Shown here in pieces: positions 32,396-43,844 of a stretch of 64,000 nucleotides of DNA. Made by a program: the position numbers and the translations under genes. Every line of letters starts with the position of its first letter. Position 1 is the first letter of the stretch. The stretch is from positions 372,001 to 436,000 of the forward strand of contig NZ_JACIJE010000002.1 of assembly GCF_014199195.1 (NCBI RefSeq). Direction: 5' to 3'. This DNA is from Neoroseomonas alkaliterrae. Lineage in GTDB: Bacteria > Pseudomonadota > Alphaproteobacteria > Acetobacterales > Acetobacteraceae. The notes beneath the pieces were generated by a model. The model saw only the letters and a list, made by a program, of their open reading frames with translations. It ran no database searches and was not told the origin of the DNA.

Positions 32396-35641
<3,246 letters not shown>

Positions 35642-36218: not shown

Positions 36219-36286
36219 GGCGCCGGATCCACTTTCGGCGCGGACGGATCGCCGCGCACCATCGCCTCGATGCCCGCGGCCCTCAT
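36215..36286 (-). CDS. Possible 23-aa micro-ORF
   Basis: The frame encodes MRAAGIEAMVRGDPSAPKVD followed by Pro-Ala-Pro. It begins within the LysE-family stop (ATGA at 36286-36283) and ends within the start of the 90-aa membrane protein (ATGA at 36218-36215), filling the gap exactly. Such double coupling could serve as a translational relay with or without a functional peptide. It shows no hydrophobic segment or known motif. Confidence 0.3.
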   Translation of the reverse strand: MRAAGIEAMVRGDPSAPKVDPAP

Positions 36287-36915
36287 CGGGAGGGCTCCGT
36301 GGCGAGCTTCATTGCGATCAGCCCGAGCGCCGCACCGAGCAGCCAGCGCTGCGCCGCCATCCATGCCGGCCGCGTGCCGAGGAATCGCGCCACCCCCGCC
36401 GCGCCATGGACGAGCGCGGCATCGAAGAGGATGGCGACGCCGATCTGCACGCCGCCGAGCACGATGCCCTGCGTCAGCACATCCCCGCGCGCGGGGTCGA
36501 TGAAGGGCGGCAGCACGGCCACGTAGAACAGCGCCACCTTCGGGTTCAGCGCCGCGGTGGCGAAGCCCACCGAGAACAGCCGCGCCGCCGGCTCGCGCGG
36601 CAGCGGCCGCGGCGAGAAGATGGGCTGCCCGCCAGGGCGCACGCATTGCCAGGCGAGGAAGGCCAGATACGCGGCCCCGCCCAGCCGCAGCGCATCCCAG
36701 GCATAGGGCACGGCGAACAGCGCGGCGGTCAGCCCCGCCGCCGCGCACAGCATGATGACGAGCGAGCCGAACTGGCACCCCACCAGCGAGACCATGCCCG
36801 CCCCCGTCCCCTGCGCCAGCGCGCGCGAGACGAGGTAGAGCATGTTCGGCCCCGGCGTCGCCGCGAGGCCGAAGGAGAGCGCGGCGAAGACCAGCAGCGT
36901 CTCGGCGGAGGGCAT
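36283..36915 (-). CDS. LysE/RhtB family amino-acid exporter
   Basis: The 210-aa inner-membrane exporter has about six helices and the family signature near the N-terminus (SFGLAATPGPNMLYLVSRAL), then VGCQFGSLVIMLCAAAGL and TAALNPKVALFYVAVLPPF. Members export lysine/arginine, homoserine/threonine or similar. The substrate is not determined by sequence. It lies between carA and carB, so export of an arginine-pathway compound is an attractive but unproven idea. The start overlaps the SDR stop by one base. Confidence 0.9.
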   Translation of the reverse strand: MPSAETLLVFAALSFGLAATPGPNMLYLVSRALAQGTGAGMVSLVGCQFGSLVIMLCAAAGLTAALFAVPYAWDALRLGGAAYLAFLAWQCVRPGGQPIFSPRPLPREPAARLFSVGFATAALNPKVALFYVAVLPPFIDPARGDVLTQGIVLGGVQIGVAILFDAALVHGAAGVARFLGTRPAWMAAQRWLLGAALGLIAMKLATEPSR

Positions 36916-37673
36916 CAGCCGTGCACCGAGAACCCGCCATCCACCGGGATCGCCACCCCGGTGATGAAGGCTGCCGCGTCACTCGCCAGGAAGGCGGCGA
37001 TGCCCTCGAAATCCTTCGGGTCGCCCCAGCGCTTGATCGGGCTGCGGCGCAGCACGTCGTCGTGCAGCGTCGCCATGTCCTGCCGCGCCTTCCTCGTGAG
37101 GTCGGTGTCGATCCAGCCGGGCAGGATCACGTTCACCGTGATCCCGTCCTGCGCCCAGGCGACCGCGAGCGACTTCGTCATCTGCACCACGCCGCCCTTC
37201 GAGGCGCCGTAGGCCGCATGGAAGGGCAGGCCGAAGATGGAGAGCATCGAGCCGTTGTTGATCACGCGCCCGACGCCGCCCTTCTTCAGCCACGGATGCG
37301 CGGCCTGCGCGGCGATCATGCCGGAGGTGAGGTTGGTGGCGATGACGGTGTGCCAATCCTCCATCCGGTAGGATTCGGGACGGTTGCGGATGTTGGTCCC
37401 GGCATTGTTCACCAGGATGTCGAGCCGCCCGAAACGCTCGGCCGTGGTCGCGACCATGGCGCGGATCGAGGCTTCGTCCGTCACGTCCACTTCCACGGAT
37501 CCGGCCTTCGCGCCGAGGGCGGCGAGTTCCGCCACGGCGGCCGCGTTCTTGGCCGCGTTGCGCCCGGCCACCATCACCGCCGCGCCGGCCCTGGCGAGGC
37601 CACGCGCGAAGCCGAGGCCGATGCCCCCGTTGCCGCCGGTGACGAGCGCGACGCGCCCCGAAAGATCGAACAT
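36915..37673 (-). CDS. Short-chain dehydrogenase/reductase (gluconate 5-dehydrogenase-like)
   Basis: The 252-aa classical SDR has the cofactor motif VTGGNGGIGLGFARGLA (TGxxxGxG), NNAG (ILVNNAGTNIRNRPESY), catalytic Ser in NNGSMLSIFG and Tyr-x-x-x-Lys (AAYGASKGG). The overall sequence resembles 2-deoxy-gluconate 3- or gluconate 5-dehydrogenases; the substrate is uncertain. It follows carA by 28 bp and overlaps the LysE gene, so it sits within the carA-carB transcription unit. Confidence 0.9.
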   Translation of the reverse strand: MFDLSGRVALVTGGNGGIGLGFARGLARAGAAVMVAGRNAAKNAAAVAELAALGAKAGSVEVDVTDEASIRAMVATTAERFGRLDILVNNAGTNIRNRPESYRMEDWHTVIATNLTSGMIAAQAAHPWLKKGGVGRVINNGSMLSIFGLPFHAAYGASKGGVVQMTKSLAVAWAQDGITVNVILPGWIDTDLTRKARQDMATLHDDVLRRSPIKRWGDPKDFEGIAAFLASDAAAFITGVAIPVDGGFSVHG

Positions 37674-37701: not shown

Positions 37702-39093
37702 TCAGGCGCCGGCCTTGTGCGCCTCGATCATCTCGACGAAGCGGCGGAACAGGTAGTGGCTGTCGGAGGGGCCGGGGCTCGCCTCCGGATGGTACTGCAC
37801 CGAGAAGGCCGGGCGGTCGGTCGCGGCGATGCCCTCGTTGGTGCCGTCGAACAGCGAGACATGCGTGACCTTCGCGTTCGAAGGCAGGGTCTTGGGGTCC
37901 ACCGCGAAGCCGTGGTTCTGGCTGGTGATCTCGACCTTGCCGGTGGTCAGGTCCTTCACCGGCTGGTTCGCGCCGCGATGCCCGCGCGCGAGCTTGTAGG
38001 TCTTCGCCCCCAGAGCCAGCGACAGCAACTGGTGGCCGAGGCAGATGCCGAACACCGGCAGTCTCCTCTCCAGCACGCCGCGGATGGCCGGGATCGCGTA
38101 GGCGCCGGTCGCGGCGGGGTCGCCGGGGCCGTTGGAGAGGAACACCCCATCCGGCTCGTGCGCGAGGATCTCCTCCGCGCTCGCCGTCGCCGGCACCACC
38201 ACCACCTCGCAGCCGGCGGAGGCGAGGCAGCGCAGGATGTTCCGCTTCGCCCCGTAATCCACCGCGACCACGCGATGCCGCGGCGCGGTCTGCCGGCCGA
38301 AGCCGGCGGGCCAGGCCCATTCCGTCTCGTCCCAGGTATAGGTCTGGCGGCAGGTGACCTCCTTCGCGAGGTCCATCCCTTCGAGGCCCGGCCAGACGGC
38401 GGCCTGGGCCTTGAGGGCGGGGATGTCGAAACGCCCGTCCGCGCGGTGGCAGATCACGCCATTCGGCGCGCCTGCGTCGCGGATGCGCGCCGTCAGCGCG
38501 CGGGTGTCGATGCCCGCGAGGCCCGGGATGCCGTGCGACACCAGCCAGGCATCGAGGTGCTTCGTCGCGCGCCAGTTCGCCGGCTCGGTCACGTCCTGCT
38601 TCACGATCAGCCCGCGCGCGGCGGGCGTGATGCTCTCGATGTCCTCGGGGTTGGTTCCGACATTGCCGATATGGGGGAAGGTGAAGGTGATGACCTGCCC
38701 GGCATAGGAGGGGTCGGTCAGCGTCTCCTGGTATCCGGTCATGCCGGTGTTGAAGCAGATCTCGCCGACCTGGGCGGTCTCGGCGCCGAAGCCGCGGCCC
38801 CAGAGGATGGTGCCGTCGGCCAGCACGAGGCAGCCGGTGGCGCCGTCAGGGGGGGTATCGGCCGCGGCCATGGGGGGCTCCGTCTTGCTGGGGTCCGAGG
38901 GTCGGGTGTCCGAGGGTGCGCCGGGCATGTCGGCAAGCGCCAGCCCCGTGGCGGCGAGGATGGAGGGCCAGTGTTTCGCCGGGATGGCGCGGGCCTGGCG
39001 CCATTTGCGGATGGCCTCGGTCCCGACGCCGCAATGGGCCGCCGCCGCCTCGGGGCCACCGAGCAGGGCGATGATGTCTTCCACGCTGCGCAT
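37702..39093 (-). CDS. carA: Carbamoyl-phosphate synthase small subunit with N-terminal HTH domain
   Basis: Glutamine amidotransferase subunit passing ammonia to CarB. Of 463 aa, residues about 3-55 form a Cro/YdaS-like HTH ([40 protein letters not shown]), followed by a Pro/Ser/Thr linker, and CarA proper begins at Met75. The CarA part is complete: [20 protein letters not shown], nucleophile Cys351 in [15 protein letters not shown], and [15 protein letters not shown] 39093 is preferred to 39129, whose extra codons are the operator palindrome. An internal ATG at 38871 with GGAG 6 nt upstream could yield a normal-length CarA. Confidence 0.95.
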
Positions 39094-39100
39094 GGCGGCC

Positions 39101-39129
39101 TGATAGCGGGAAACGATTTCCCATGGCAA
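39101..39129 (-). promoter_or_regulatory. carA promoter with palindromic operator in its spacer
   Basis: Read on the minus strand, TTGCCA (39129-39124) and CTATCA (39106-39101) are separated by 17 bp, and that spacer holds the palindrome GGGAAA-TCG-TTTCCC (39108-39122). Transcription would begin about 7 nt later, at or next to the ATG at 39093, implying a leaderless mRNA. The -10 match is modest, so the promoter is a prediction. Confidence 0.5.
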
Positions 39130-39146
39130 TGGGGATCGGTCGCGTG

Positions 39147-39156
39147 GGAAATTTCC
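39147..39156. promoter_or_regulatory. Second GGAAATTTCC palindrome
   Basis: A perfect 10-bp palindrome sharing half-sites with the palindrome in the carA promoter, 36.5 bp away centre to centre. It lies between carA and the divergent YqeY gene, upstream of a TATAGC (39176-39181) that may be the -10 of that gene. It is a plausible second operator for the CarA HTH domain. Confidence 0.45.
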
Positions 39157-39207
39157 TCCCAGGCGGGCGCTGCGCTATAGCGGGGCGATCAGTCGAGGAT
39201 TGCTGCC

Positions 39208-39660
39208 ATGTCCCTGCGCGACCGTTTCACCGAGGAACTCAAGGCCGCCATGCGCGCCGGCGACAGCGCCCGCGTCTCCACCCTGCGCATGATCCAGGCG
39301 AAACTGAAGGATACCGACATCGCCGCCCGTCCGGGCCCGCCGGTGGATGATGCCGGCATCATCGCCATGCTGCGGGGCATGGCCAAGTCCCGCGCGGAAT
39401 CGGTGGCGCTCTACCGCCAGGGCGGGCGCGAGGAACTGGCCGCGAAGGAGGAGGCCGAGATCGCCGTCATCGAATCCTTCCTCCCTCAGCAGATGGACGA
39501 GGCCGCCATGGCCGCCGCGATCGAGGCCGCGATCGCCGAGACGGGCGCGGCCTCGGTCAAGGACATGGGCAAGGTGATGGCGGCGCTGAAGGCCAGGCAC
39601 GCCGCCACGCTCGACATGGCCAAGGCGGGGCCGATGGTGAAGGCGCGGCTCGGCGGCTGA
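39208..39660 (+). CDS. GatB/YqeY domain protein
   Basis: The 150-aa stand-alone YqeY-type protein is related to the C-terminal tRNA-binding domain of GatB. Typical segments are LRDRFTEELKAAMRAGDSAR, STLRMIQAKLKDTDI, EIAVIESFLPQQMDEAAM and VKDMGKVMAALKARH. The function is not settled; association with tRNA amidation is suggested by homology. ATG at 39208 follows GAGGA at 39195-39199. It is divergent from carA, sharing its regulatory region, and is followed by DUF3126 (convergent) and dnaG, as in many alphaproteobacteria. Confidence 0.93.
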   Translation: MSLRDRFTEELKAAMRAGDSARVSTLRMIQAKLKDTDIAARPGPPVDDAGIIAMLRGMAKSRAESVALYRQGGREELAAKEEAEIAVIESFLPQQMDEAAMAAAIEAAIAETGAASVKDMGKVMAALKARHAATLDMAKAGPMVKARLGG

Positions 39661-40059: not shown

Positions 40060-41853
40060 ATGGCCCTCCCGCCCGCCTTCCTCGACGAGCTCCGCGCCCG
40101 CACGCCGCTGCCCGGCCTGATCGGGCGCAAGACGCGGCTCGTGAAGTCCGGCCGCAACTGGAAGGGATGCTGCCCCTTCCACGGCGAAAAGACGCCCTCC
40201 TTCTACGTCTATGACGACCATTTCCACTGCTTCGGCTGCGGCGCGCACGGGGATGCCATCACCTTCCTGATGCGCGCCGAGGGCGCCTCCTTCCCCGAGG
40301 CGGTCGAGCGGCTGGCCGCCGAGGCGGGCATGGAGGTGCCCAGGCCCTCGGCCGAGCAGGCGGCGCGCGAACGCCGCGCGCGGGACCTGCACGCCGTCAT
40401 GGCCGCCGCCGCCGAGGCCTATCACCGCCGCCTCTTCCTGCCCGAGGGCCGGCCCGCGCTCGACTACCTGCTGCGCCGCGGGCTCAAGGAGGAGACGATC
40501 CGCGCCTTTCAGCTCGGCTGGGCGCCGTCCGGCCGCGGCGCCATCGCCGCCGACCTGCGCGGGGAGGGCGTCAGCGAGGAGCAGCTGATCGAGGCCGGCC
40601 TGCTGCGCCCCGGCGAGGCCGGCGACCCGCCGCGCGACTTCTTCTACGCCCGCGTCATGTTCCCGATCCGCGACCGGCGCGGGCGGGTGATCGCCTTCGG
40701 CGGGCGCATCCTCGGCGACGGGCAGCCGAAATACGTCAACAGCCCGGAGACGCCGCTGTTCCGCAAGCGGATGGGGCTCTACGGCCTGGACCTGGCGCGG
40801 GAGGGGGCCTTCCGTGGCGCGCAGGTGGTCGCGGTCGAGGGCTACATGGATGTCATCGCCCTGCACCAGGCCGGCTTCACCGGGGCGGTGGCGCCGCTCG
40901 GCACGGCGCTGACGGCCGAGCAGCTCGAGGAACTCTGGCGCATCAGCCCCGAACCCTGCCTCTGCTTCGACGGCGACGCCGCCGGGGCGCGCGCGGCCGC
41001 CCGCGCGGCCGAGGTGGCGCTGCCGCTGATCTCGACCGAGCGGACGCTGCGCTTCGCCACCCTGCCCGCCGGGGAGGATCCGGACACGCTCACCGCGCGC
41101 CGCGGCCCCGCCGCCTTCCAGGCCGTGCTCGACGGCGCCCGCCCGATGGCCGAGGCGCTCTACGGCCTGATCGCCGAAGGACGGCCCAGCGCGACGCCCG
41201 AGCAGCGCGCCGCGCTGCGCAACCGCCTGACCGGCGCGGCCTGGGCGATCACGGACAAGGCGCTCGCGGCCGAATACCGGCGCGTGCTGCTCGACCGCTT
41301 CTTCGCCGCCTTCCGCGGCGGGCGGGGCGGGCCGGCCGCGCCGAGGCGGATCGCCCGCCCCGCCATCGCCGAGCCCGCCACGCGCGCCGAGCGCGCGCGC
41401 ATGCTGCTCGCTATCCTGCTGCGCCATCCCTGGCTGCTGCCGCAGGTGGAGGAGGCGGTCGGGCTGCTCGACCTGCCCGATGGGCCTCCGGCGCAGCTTC
41501 GGGCCGCGATTCTCGCATGGCATGGCGGGGCCGAGCGGGTTGACTCGGAGGGCTTGATCGCCCACCTCGCACGGTGCGGACTGGAGGATGCCGTCGCCTG
41601 GGCGCTGGCGCCCGCGGGCCTTCCCCTTGCGGCGCGGGCCGAGGCCCTGCCGGGGGAGGTCGAGGAAGGCTTCTGGCACTTCTTCCTCCGCCTGCGCGGC
41701 GAGGCGGACTTGATCGAGGACCAGCAGGAGGCCCGGCGGATCCTGGCGGAGACGAACGATCCCGCGGCTCAGCGCCGGCTGATCCTGCTGACGGAGGCGC
41801 TCGAGGCCATCCGCCGGGGAGAGGCCGCGGCGGCATCCGGGGACGCCGCATAG
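40060..41853 (+). CDS. dnaG: DNA primase
   Basis: Makes RNA primers for replication. The 597-aa protein has the N-terminal CHC2 zinc finger (Cys38, His41, Cys57, Cys60 in CCPFHGEK ... FHCFGCGAHGD), a TOPRIM catalytic core (VVAVEGYMDVIALHQAGF with the Glu, and LCFDGDAAGARAAARA with the Asp pair) and a C-terminal helicase-binding domain. The start is the ATG at 40060. It precedes rpoD, the conserved macromolecular-synthesis arrangement. Confidence 0.97.
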   Translation: MALPPAFLDELRARTPLPGLIGRKTRLVKSGRNWKGCCPFHGEKTPSFYVYDDHFHCFGCGAHGDAITFLMRAEGASFPEAVERLAAEAGMEVPRPSAEQAARERRARDLHAVMAAAAEAYHRRLFLPEGRPALDYLLRRGLKEETIRAFQLGWAPSGRGAIAADLRGEGVSEEQLIEAGLLRPGEAGDPPRDFFYARVMFPIRDRRGRVIAFGGRILGDGQPKYVNSPETPLFRKRMGLYGLDLAREGAFRGAQVVAVEGYMDVIALHQAGFTGAVAPLGTALTAEQLEELWRISPEPCLCFDGDAAGARAAARAAEVALPLISTERTLRFATLPAGEDPDTLTARRGPAAFQAVLDGARPMAEALYGLIAEGRPSATPEQRAALRNRLTGAAWAITDKALAAEYRRVLLDRFFAAFRGGRGGPAAPRRIARPAIAEPATRAERARMLLAILLRHPWLLPQVEEAVGLLDLPDGPPAQLRAAILAWHGGAERVDSEGLIAHLARCGLEDAVAWALAPAGLPLAARAEALPGEVEEGFWHFFLRLRGEADLIEDQQEARRILAETNDPAAQRRLILLTEALEAIRRGEAAAASGDAA

Positions 41854-41869: not shown

Positions 41870-41900
41870 TTCGGGCATCCGCCTCCCGCGGGTGCCCGAA
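41870..41900 (+). terminator. 13-bp hairpin between dnaG and rpoD
   Basis: TTCGGGCATCCGC (41870-41882) pairs with GCGGGTGCCCGAA (41888-41900), one pair being U-G, around a 5-nt loop. It lies 16 nt past dnaG and 24 nt before rpoD. It may attenuate readthrough or be an RNA-processing site that sets different dnaG and rpoD levels. Confidence 0.55.
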
Positions 41901-41924
41901 GCCGTTGGACGGAGCAGGGCGGGC

Positions 41925-43844
<1,920 letters not shown>

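Follow-up and report, generated by a model that had tools for sequence, protein, structure and literature searches.

Why should the small subunit of a biosynthetic enzyme begin with a DNA-binding domain? The question is raised by the carA gene in a stretch of 64,000 nucleotides of the Neoroseomonas alkaliterrae genome (Acetobacteraceae; contig NZ_JACIJE010000002.1, positions 372,001 to 436,000), which is called the window hereafter. The product, HTH-CarA, unites a helix-turn-helix (HTH) domain, referred to as the head, with the glutamine-hydrolysing subunit of carbamoyl-phosphate synthase (CPSase), the entry enzyme of arginine and pyrimidine biosynthesis. On the basis of sequence comparisons we propose that HTH-CarA is probably a bifunctional enzyme and repressor, whose head dimers would occupy two palindromes at the promoter of its own gene and shut off carA (negative autoregulation).

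An HTH domain in front of a complete CarA

A preliminary description of the window had reported a frame running from the HTH into CarA without a stop. This frame was confirmed and comprises 463 residues on the minus strand (Table 1). The CarA profile TIGR01368 covered residues 88-457 (469.4 bits, cut-off 307.35), and the protein contains the CPSase small-chain and the class-I glutamine amidotransferase (GATase) domains. The GATase motifs include Cys351, His435 and Glu437, which we take to be the catalytic triad of the CarA glutaminase, so the description of a complete CarA with its catalytic residues was correct as well. The partner subunit CarB is encoded on the same strand.

The head matched the NCBIfam model NF046037 (carph-isopro) with residues 4-56 (64.5 bits, cut-off 38; model positions 1-53 of 54). 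The name of this model may refer to carbamoyl phosphate. Scores obtained with the Pfam models YdaS_toxin (20.5 bits, gathering threshold 30) and P22_Cro (20.4 bits, threshold 30.2) were too low. We refined the former designation of the domain as Cro/YdaS-like to carph-isopro of the all-alpha Cro type. An AlphaFold2 model of the head alone (mean predicted local distance difference test score, pLDDT, 94.6) revealed four helices (residues 4-11, 14-21, 25-34 and 39-49), whose HTH can be superposed on that of Cro. The best Foldseek matches were the all-alpha phage Cro proteins of Xfaso 1 (3bd1), N15 (2hin/6on0) and P22 (1rzs), with a probability of 1.00, weak E-values (0.026-0.11) and TM-scores (query) of 0.63-0.73. 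They share the fold and a rough sequence likeness with the head, and N15 Cro has also been solved together with operator DNA. However, phage Cro proteins are small free proteins of phages or prophages, whereas the CarA head is joined to a housekeeping enzyme and has persisted in almost an entire bacterial family. In the full-length model, the pLDDT fell below 50 at residues 56-76 (linker).

Among 35 genomes of the genus, 34 had the carph-isopro domain above the cut-off, as did 278 of 299 sampled genomes of the Acetobacteraceae; its occurrence is therefore far beyond chance. The profile mapping over relatives that the preliminary description had suggested thus turned out in favor of a real domain. 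A sample of the order gave 248 out of 250 genomes, all 250 belonging to the Acetobacteraceae. At each of 162 family loci from 90 genera the head was in frame with CarA, i.e., the sequences predict a DNA-binding domain and an enzyme in one polypeptide (a regular expression assigned 160 loci, and L143 and L163 were read by eye). Catalytic motifs were found at 157 of these loci; the other five were short frames of 250-347 residues. Two trivial explanations were discarded. A separate upstream gene mistaken for a fusion does not agree with the absence of a stop codon at all 162 loci and with 34 linkers that lack any ATG, and a chance open frame was ruled out by conservation and by the codon-position pattern. 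Within the genus, comparison of 1653 head codons with the window disclosed 204, 86 and 694 differences at codon positions 1, 2 and 3, respectively. Judged from the sequences, the HTH part evolves as a protein, and purifying selection on it is strong. Residues R29, K30 and W31 of the recognition helix were invariant in all 90 genera (one locus each).

Outside the family the fusion was not encountered. The head was absent from carA at all 28 readable loci (29 fetched) of other alphaproteobacterial families, the best phmmer E-value being 0.012. A scan of named sequences (80 loci kept of 338 confirmed stretches) yielded 74 entries whose titles name the Acetobacteraceae or genera of this family, and six named only Alphaproteobacteria or Rhodospirillales bacterium.

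Putative palindromic operators in the carA control region

For the analysis of the control region, 160 bp upstream of HTH-carA were scored with the palindromic core xGGAA-N5-TTCCx, seven of the eight core bases being counted as a match. At L206, for which no ATG was detected automatically, positions were taken from the aligned start. All 161 loci with a full upstream region contained at least one palindrome, so that each of these genes has a candidate operator in its own control region, as an autoregulatory enzyme-repressor would. Two palindromes were present at 149 loci and a perfect core at 156. Dinucleotide shuffles gave 10.9% for one site, 0.7% for two sites and 0.6% for a perfect core, and in control windows from coding regions the respective numbers were 1, 0 and 0 out of 161. 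The two sites were mostly separated by 37-40 bp (121 loci), less frequently by 43-44 bp (14), 48-50 bp (10) or other distances (4), and 12 loci had a single site. With one locus per genus, the half-site consensus was TGGGAA, corresponding to the full palindrome TGGGAA-N5-TTCCCA. Cro operators are likewise palindromic, overlap promoters and occur several per control region.

The position of the promoter-proximal site was conserved at many loci. It begins 27-31 bp before the ATG at 108 loci representing 57 genera. Exactly seven bases ahead of it, TTG was present at 100 of the 108 loci, while TAN started 1-3 bases past it at 91. In an alignment of the 57 genera, the TTG bases were conserved to 93-98% and the A of the TAN to 91%. 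We infer that these elements represent the -35 and -10 regions of a promoter whose spacer is occupied by the operator. In the window, the spacer of this putative promoter measures 18 bp and holds the proximal operator, and six nucleotides lie between the -10 region and the ATG. Because of this short distance, transcription from this promoter would give a leaderless mRNA with the HTH codons at its 5' end. The same layout bears on the direction of control. The distal site precedes the promoter, as activator sites can do, and bound HTH-CarA might accordingly stimulate carA; yet a protein that occupies the roughly 17-18 bp between conserved -35 and -10 regions normally blocks the polymerase, and we therefore judge activation instead of repression to be very improbable. 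Leaderless mRNAs have been reported in the main text of an RNA-seq study of Gluconobacter oxydans 621H (PMC5756330), in which carA is not mentioned.

Specificity of the putative operators

In the genome of the window, 48 places matched GGGAAN5TTCCC with at most one mismatch, compared to 55 for the reversed control pattern. A close pair of sites occurred at the carA promoter only, and one further exact site was found (contig C6, position 133266). The stricter motif TGGGAAN5TTCCCR was detected at 40 distinct places in 25 genomes of the family, 29 of which were carA promoters (counted by hand). Of the 21 genomes with HTH-carA, 20 had it at carA, and only G117 deviated, with sites of the CCGGAA type. 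The 11 places apart from carA were scattered, and the 13 strand hits there compare with eight for the reversed pattern. Thus, the motif search of these 25 genomes for a wider regulon did not reveal any consistent second location. Pairs of sites 36-55 bp apart were absent from the 28 carA loci of other families.

Both operators reside in a gap of 114 bp that carA has in common with a divergent gene. A homologue was adjacent to HTH-carA in divergent orientation at 66 of the 80 named loci, which makes control of the divergent side possible. The main target might then be the block of the divergent yqeY-like gene, dnaG and rpoD, or transcription in both directions, so that the CarA status would tune the synthesis of primase and sigma-70. 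We consider this unlikely, since across 57 genera the proximal operator is placed with single-base precision relative to the -35/-10-like elements of carA.

Loss of the head and possible covariation with the operators

The search for headless carA genes covered 16 genomes, namely nine of the 16 family genomes without a match, G018 and G149, and five genomes with weak matches. CarA scored above the cut-off in six of them. In three cases (G018, G060 and G210) the gene begins at a contig edge, and the other three (G241, G063 and G149) contain a complete headless carA; in the remaining ten genomes CarA was not found above the cut-off. With three complete headless genes, three contig edges and ten genomes without a CarA match, headless relatives were dismissed as evidence against the fusion. 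G063 and G149 belong to genus g30, and G241 to g31, in which the other members read possess both the head and the sites. The 4-kb loci of the three headless genes did not contain any exact GGAA-N5-TTCC. A seven-of-eight match within 160 bp upstream was found once in G241, which shuffles reach in 11%, and not in G063 and G149. Hence, head and sites are absent together in two separate lineages.

Across 162 heads, the best predictor (adjusted R2 0.52) of an operator change from GGGAA to CGGAA was residue 33, at the end of the recognition helix. The mean fraction of variant sites was 0.07 with Q (n = 150) and 0.81 with S (n = 8) at this position. Residue 24, located just before the recognition helix, was the fourth-ranked predictor (0.32). 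A CarA tree with 97 rows, three of them less than half filled, gave three tree-aware pairs on supported branches (six on all branches), with on average 2.4 changes in the same and 0.1 in the opposite direction. The covariation of head and operator is thus a hint that rests on few independent events.

These data also bear on the question whether the palindromes might serve a separate transcription factor, the CarA head being a relic or having another purpose. The low number of independent pairs in the covariation analysis leaves room for such a factor. On the other hand, it would not be expected that the head is under purifying selection, that head and sites share their family limits in the loci read and are missing together in two lineages, and that no consistent second motif location in the genomes searched marks the gene or regulon of another regulator. 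We regard a separate factor as improbable. The joint loss and the lack of a second location, along with the family-wide conservation and the palindromes at all 161 loci with a full upstream region, rather support at sequence level the core suggestion of the preliminary description, that CarA acts as a transcription regulator comparable to PutA. Glutamine, carbamoyl phosphate and CarB binding had been named there as possible signals.

Translation start and an internal start codon

Translation most likely starts at the ATG at position 39093. A longer frame beginning with the TTG at position 39129 was rejected because the proximal palindrome of the promoter would then fall within the coding sequence. 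Within the linker there is an internal ATG (Met75), which is preceded by GGAG at a distance of six nucleotides. A linker ATG together with a loosely defined Shine-Dalgarno-like word was kept at all 30 loci of the genus and was found at 102 of the 162 family loci. Moreover, carA genes without an HTH start at about the same place as Met75. A second, HTH-less product is therefore possible in the genus. Two products might share the tasks, plain CarA made from Met75 being the catalyst and the long leaderless product mainly the regulator. This division of labor is difficult to extend to the family, as the linker is devoid of ATG at 34 of the 162 loci (21 of the 90 genera lack it at every locus read), and at five loci ATG, GTG, TTG and CTG are all missing. 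At loci without a linker start codon, the fused protein must do the catalysis. For the genus we give the two-product arrangement a little less than an even chance.

Proposed mechanism and related systems

According to the autoregulation that we favor, the Cro-type heads would bind as dimers to each TGGGAA-N5-TTCCCA palindrome upstream of their own gene. As the nearer palindrome fills the space between the -35 and -10 regions, bound HTH-CarA would prevent access of the RNA polymerase and carA would be switched off. The carA mRNA would begin at or next to the start codon of the HTH, and the fused form would thus be the primary product. Our guess is that the DNA-binding form is set by the engagement of CarA with CarB, either through an excess of free CarA or through the effector-dependent oligomer state of CPSase. 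A control by subunit balance, in which free CarA represses until it is taken up by CarB, appears as likely as gating by the oligomer state. For the latter, two palindromes at a distance of 38 bp would suit an (alpha-beta)4 complex, which carries four heads. In Escherichia coli, CPSase is a heterodimer with uridine monophosphate (UMP) and an (alpha-beta)4 complex with ornithine, as stated in the excerpted text of PMC6245113. A more far-reaching proposal, namely that the CPSase holoenzyme is a repressor gated by ligands, with ornithine and UMP on CarB setting the oligomer state and thereby whether four heads bridge the palindromes, and that HTH-CarA belongs to a recurrent class of alphaproteobacterial metabolic enzymes with Cro heads, several of them with palindromes of their own shortly ahead of the start codon, is tentative and in our opinion rather doubtful.

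Several observations weigh against autoregulation by HTH-CarA. A strict sigma-70 consensus scan of positions 39060-39260 did not yield a promoter, and some genera have their sites at about -117 and -73, so the placement in the spacer is not universal. In the full-length model, the pLDDT was also below 50 in the N-domain of CarA (residues 102-184 and 186-202), for which reason the head cannot be placed against the body. The joint absence of head and sites is limited to two lineages; their genomes are small (1.7-2.1 Mb), and the DNA upstream of their genes may have diverged as a whole. Columns 2 and 22, which ranked second and third as predictors of operator changes, lie outside the recognition helix, and on the CarA tree the covariation was not significant (median p 0.5). 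Furthermore, in the 450 bp that precede the GYQE motif, an area which includes coding DNA, six of the 28 carA loci from other families showed a seven-of-eight match. Finally, the UMP-inhibited form of the E. coli enzyme is the alpha-beta heterodimer, a poor fit to simple pyrimidine feedback if the tetramer represses.

Enzymes that are fused to a DNA-binding domain and regulate genes of their own pathway are exemplified by PutA and NadR. HTH-CarA resembles them in that its polypeptide combines an enzyme with a DNA-binding domain and that putative operators lie in a control region of its own pathway, and the head of NadR is an HTH as well. The head of PutA is a ribbon-helix-helix domain and its signal the redox state. 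Differing from both, HTH-CarA has a Cro-type head, its enzyme is the glutaminase subunit of CPSase, and no consistent target besides its own promoter was found. The comparison suggests that HTH-CarA belongs with PutA and NadR as a kind and is apparently new as a case. A search of the open literature for this fusion, the domain or such enzyme fusions gave no description of an HTH-CarA among the matches listed. The earlier statement that no such regulator has been described thus held for this literature, although a curated model of the domain already exists at NCBI. Trigger enzymes also take part in the transcription control of carAB in E. coli, where PepA and PyrH do so; these are other, separate enzymes, and in the excerpted text of PMC6245113 CarA itself is not described as a regulator.

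If the proposal is true, carA of acetic-acid and Roseomonas-like bacteria would not need a separate repressor, because the enzyme represses itself. By capturing a phage-type HTH, an enzyme would have become a regulator; the fusion was kept in all 90 genera read, and its operator code is accessible to mutational analysis. If binding is gated by the oligomer state of CPSase, the arginine and pyrimidine status would be linked to transcription in one molecule.

Gene neighbourhood

The features of the region are compiled in Table 1. The carB gene follows 2 kb downstream of carA, behind the genes for the SDR-family and the LysE-type protein.

Table 1. Features of the carA region (positions refer to the window)
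Feature	Position	Strand	Remarks
Promoter-proximal operator GGGAAATCGTTTCCC	39108..39122		exact GGGAAN5TTCCC; equivalent position in 108 loci, 57 genera
Distal operator GGGAGGAAATTTCCC	39146..39160		one mismatch to GGGAAN5TTCCC; 38 bp from the proximal operator
Putative carA promoter	39100..39129	minus	-35 TTGCCA (39129-39124), -10 TATCAG (39105-39100); inferred from the 57-genus alignment
HTH-CarA fusion gene	37702..39093	minus	open frame of 463 aa (positions include the stop codon); start ATG 39091-39093; CarA and carph-isopro profiles above cut-offs
N-terminal four-helix Cro-type HTH (carph-isopro)	38926..39084	minus	residues 4-56; recognition helix residues 25-34
Linker, Pro/Ser/Thr/Asp-rich, predicted disordered	38836..38925	minus	residues 57-86; from translation and pLDDT
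CarA part (glutamine-hydrolysing CPSase small subunit)	37714..38835	minus	residues 87-460; from profile matches
Internal ATG (Met75), possible second start for HTH-less CarA	38869..38871	minus	GGAG at 38878-38881
SDR-family oxidoreductase	36915..37673	minus	downstream of carA, 28 nt gap; possibly co-transcribed
Efflux protein, presumably of LysE/RhtB type	36283..36915	minus	between carA and carB; NCBIfam matches below cut-offs
carB, large subunit	32396..35638	minus	NF003671 1733 bits, TIGR01369 1498 bits
Divergent gene, presumably YqeY-like	39208..39660	plus	no NCBIfam match; dnaG (40060-41853) and rpoD (41892-43844) come next

Cro-type heads on other proteins

In a sample of the class, carph-isopro scored above the cut-off in 63 of 337 genomes, five of which were Acetobacteraceae; elsewhere the domain was found on other bodies. 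None of 28 matches outside the family carried CarA, as far as they were read. These proteins share the domain NF046037 with the head of the window but have other bodies instead of CarA, by eye mostly one that is membrane-spanning and coiled-coil-like, in one case a crotonyl-CoA carboxylase/reductase and in another an NAD(P)H-hydrate repair enzyme. Most of the proteins L076-L104 (without L096, L100 and L102) are composed of the head, a proline/alanine-rich stretch, a membrane segment and the coiled-coil-like body, which we assume to be mitofilin-like. L078 and L103 end shortly beyond the head.

Enzymes with a comparable head were also observed. The genome of the window contains a pyruvate kinase with an N-terminal Cro/YdaS-like HTH (L003/L340, G000:C3:18110), and relatives of it were fetched (L341-L351). 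The kinase domain reached 367 bits, and P22_Cro scored 26.5 bits, which is below the threshold of 30.2. All ten loci with a start found (12 fetched), which are close relatives within the genus and thus not independent, had a CTTA-N7-TAAG motif 23-24 bp before the ATG (one copy in 0.2% of base shuffles), and three of the ten had a second copy 41 bp further up.

Four further enzymes came from single genomes of other alphaproteobacterial families. The head of an aspartate carbamoyltransferase (HTH-PyrB; L363:483-1655, genome G510) scored 38.9 bits with carph-isopro, slightly above the cut-off of 38. Two HTH-bearing forms of the ATP phosphoribosyltransferase regulatory subunit HisZ (L362:477-1943 and L364:486-1838) were found, with scores of 39.7 bits in one case and 35.0 bits, below the cut-off, in the other. 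The protein L364 is preceded by two TTCATA-N3-TATGAA palindromes about 38-39 bp apart, just upstream of its start. A crotonyl-CoA carboxylase/reductase (L100:82-1674, minus strand) scored 612.7 bits with TIGR01751 and 61.3 bits with carph-isopro; clear twin palindromes were not found in the 150 bp upstream of it. The NAD(P)H-hydrate dehydratase/YjeF repair enzyme (L096:1492-3177), encoded by the same genome G510 as HTH-PyrB, has a carph-isopro head too, and the palindrome TTGTACGTATTTTACGTACAA begins 31 bp before its ATG. Inverted repeats with arms of 8-9 bp were located within 60 bp of the start of pyrB, one hisZ and the hydrate repair gene (counted without a shuffle baseline), and were missing within this distance at the other hisZ and at the crotonyl-CoA enzyme. 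A Cro head on a metabolic enzyme thus seems to be a recurrent design, borne by the pyruvate kinase in the genome of the window and by four enzymes of other families. Another frame, L366:483-821 (minus strand), encodes a protein of 113 aa with a Cro-like HTH and a C-terminus which by eye we take to be similar to a CcdA-type antitoxin.
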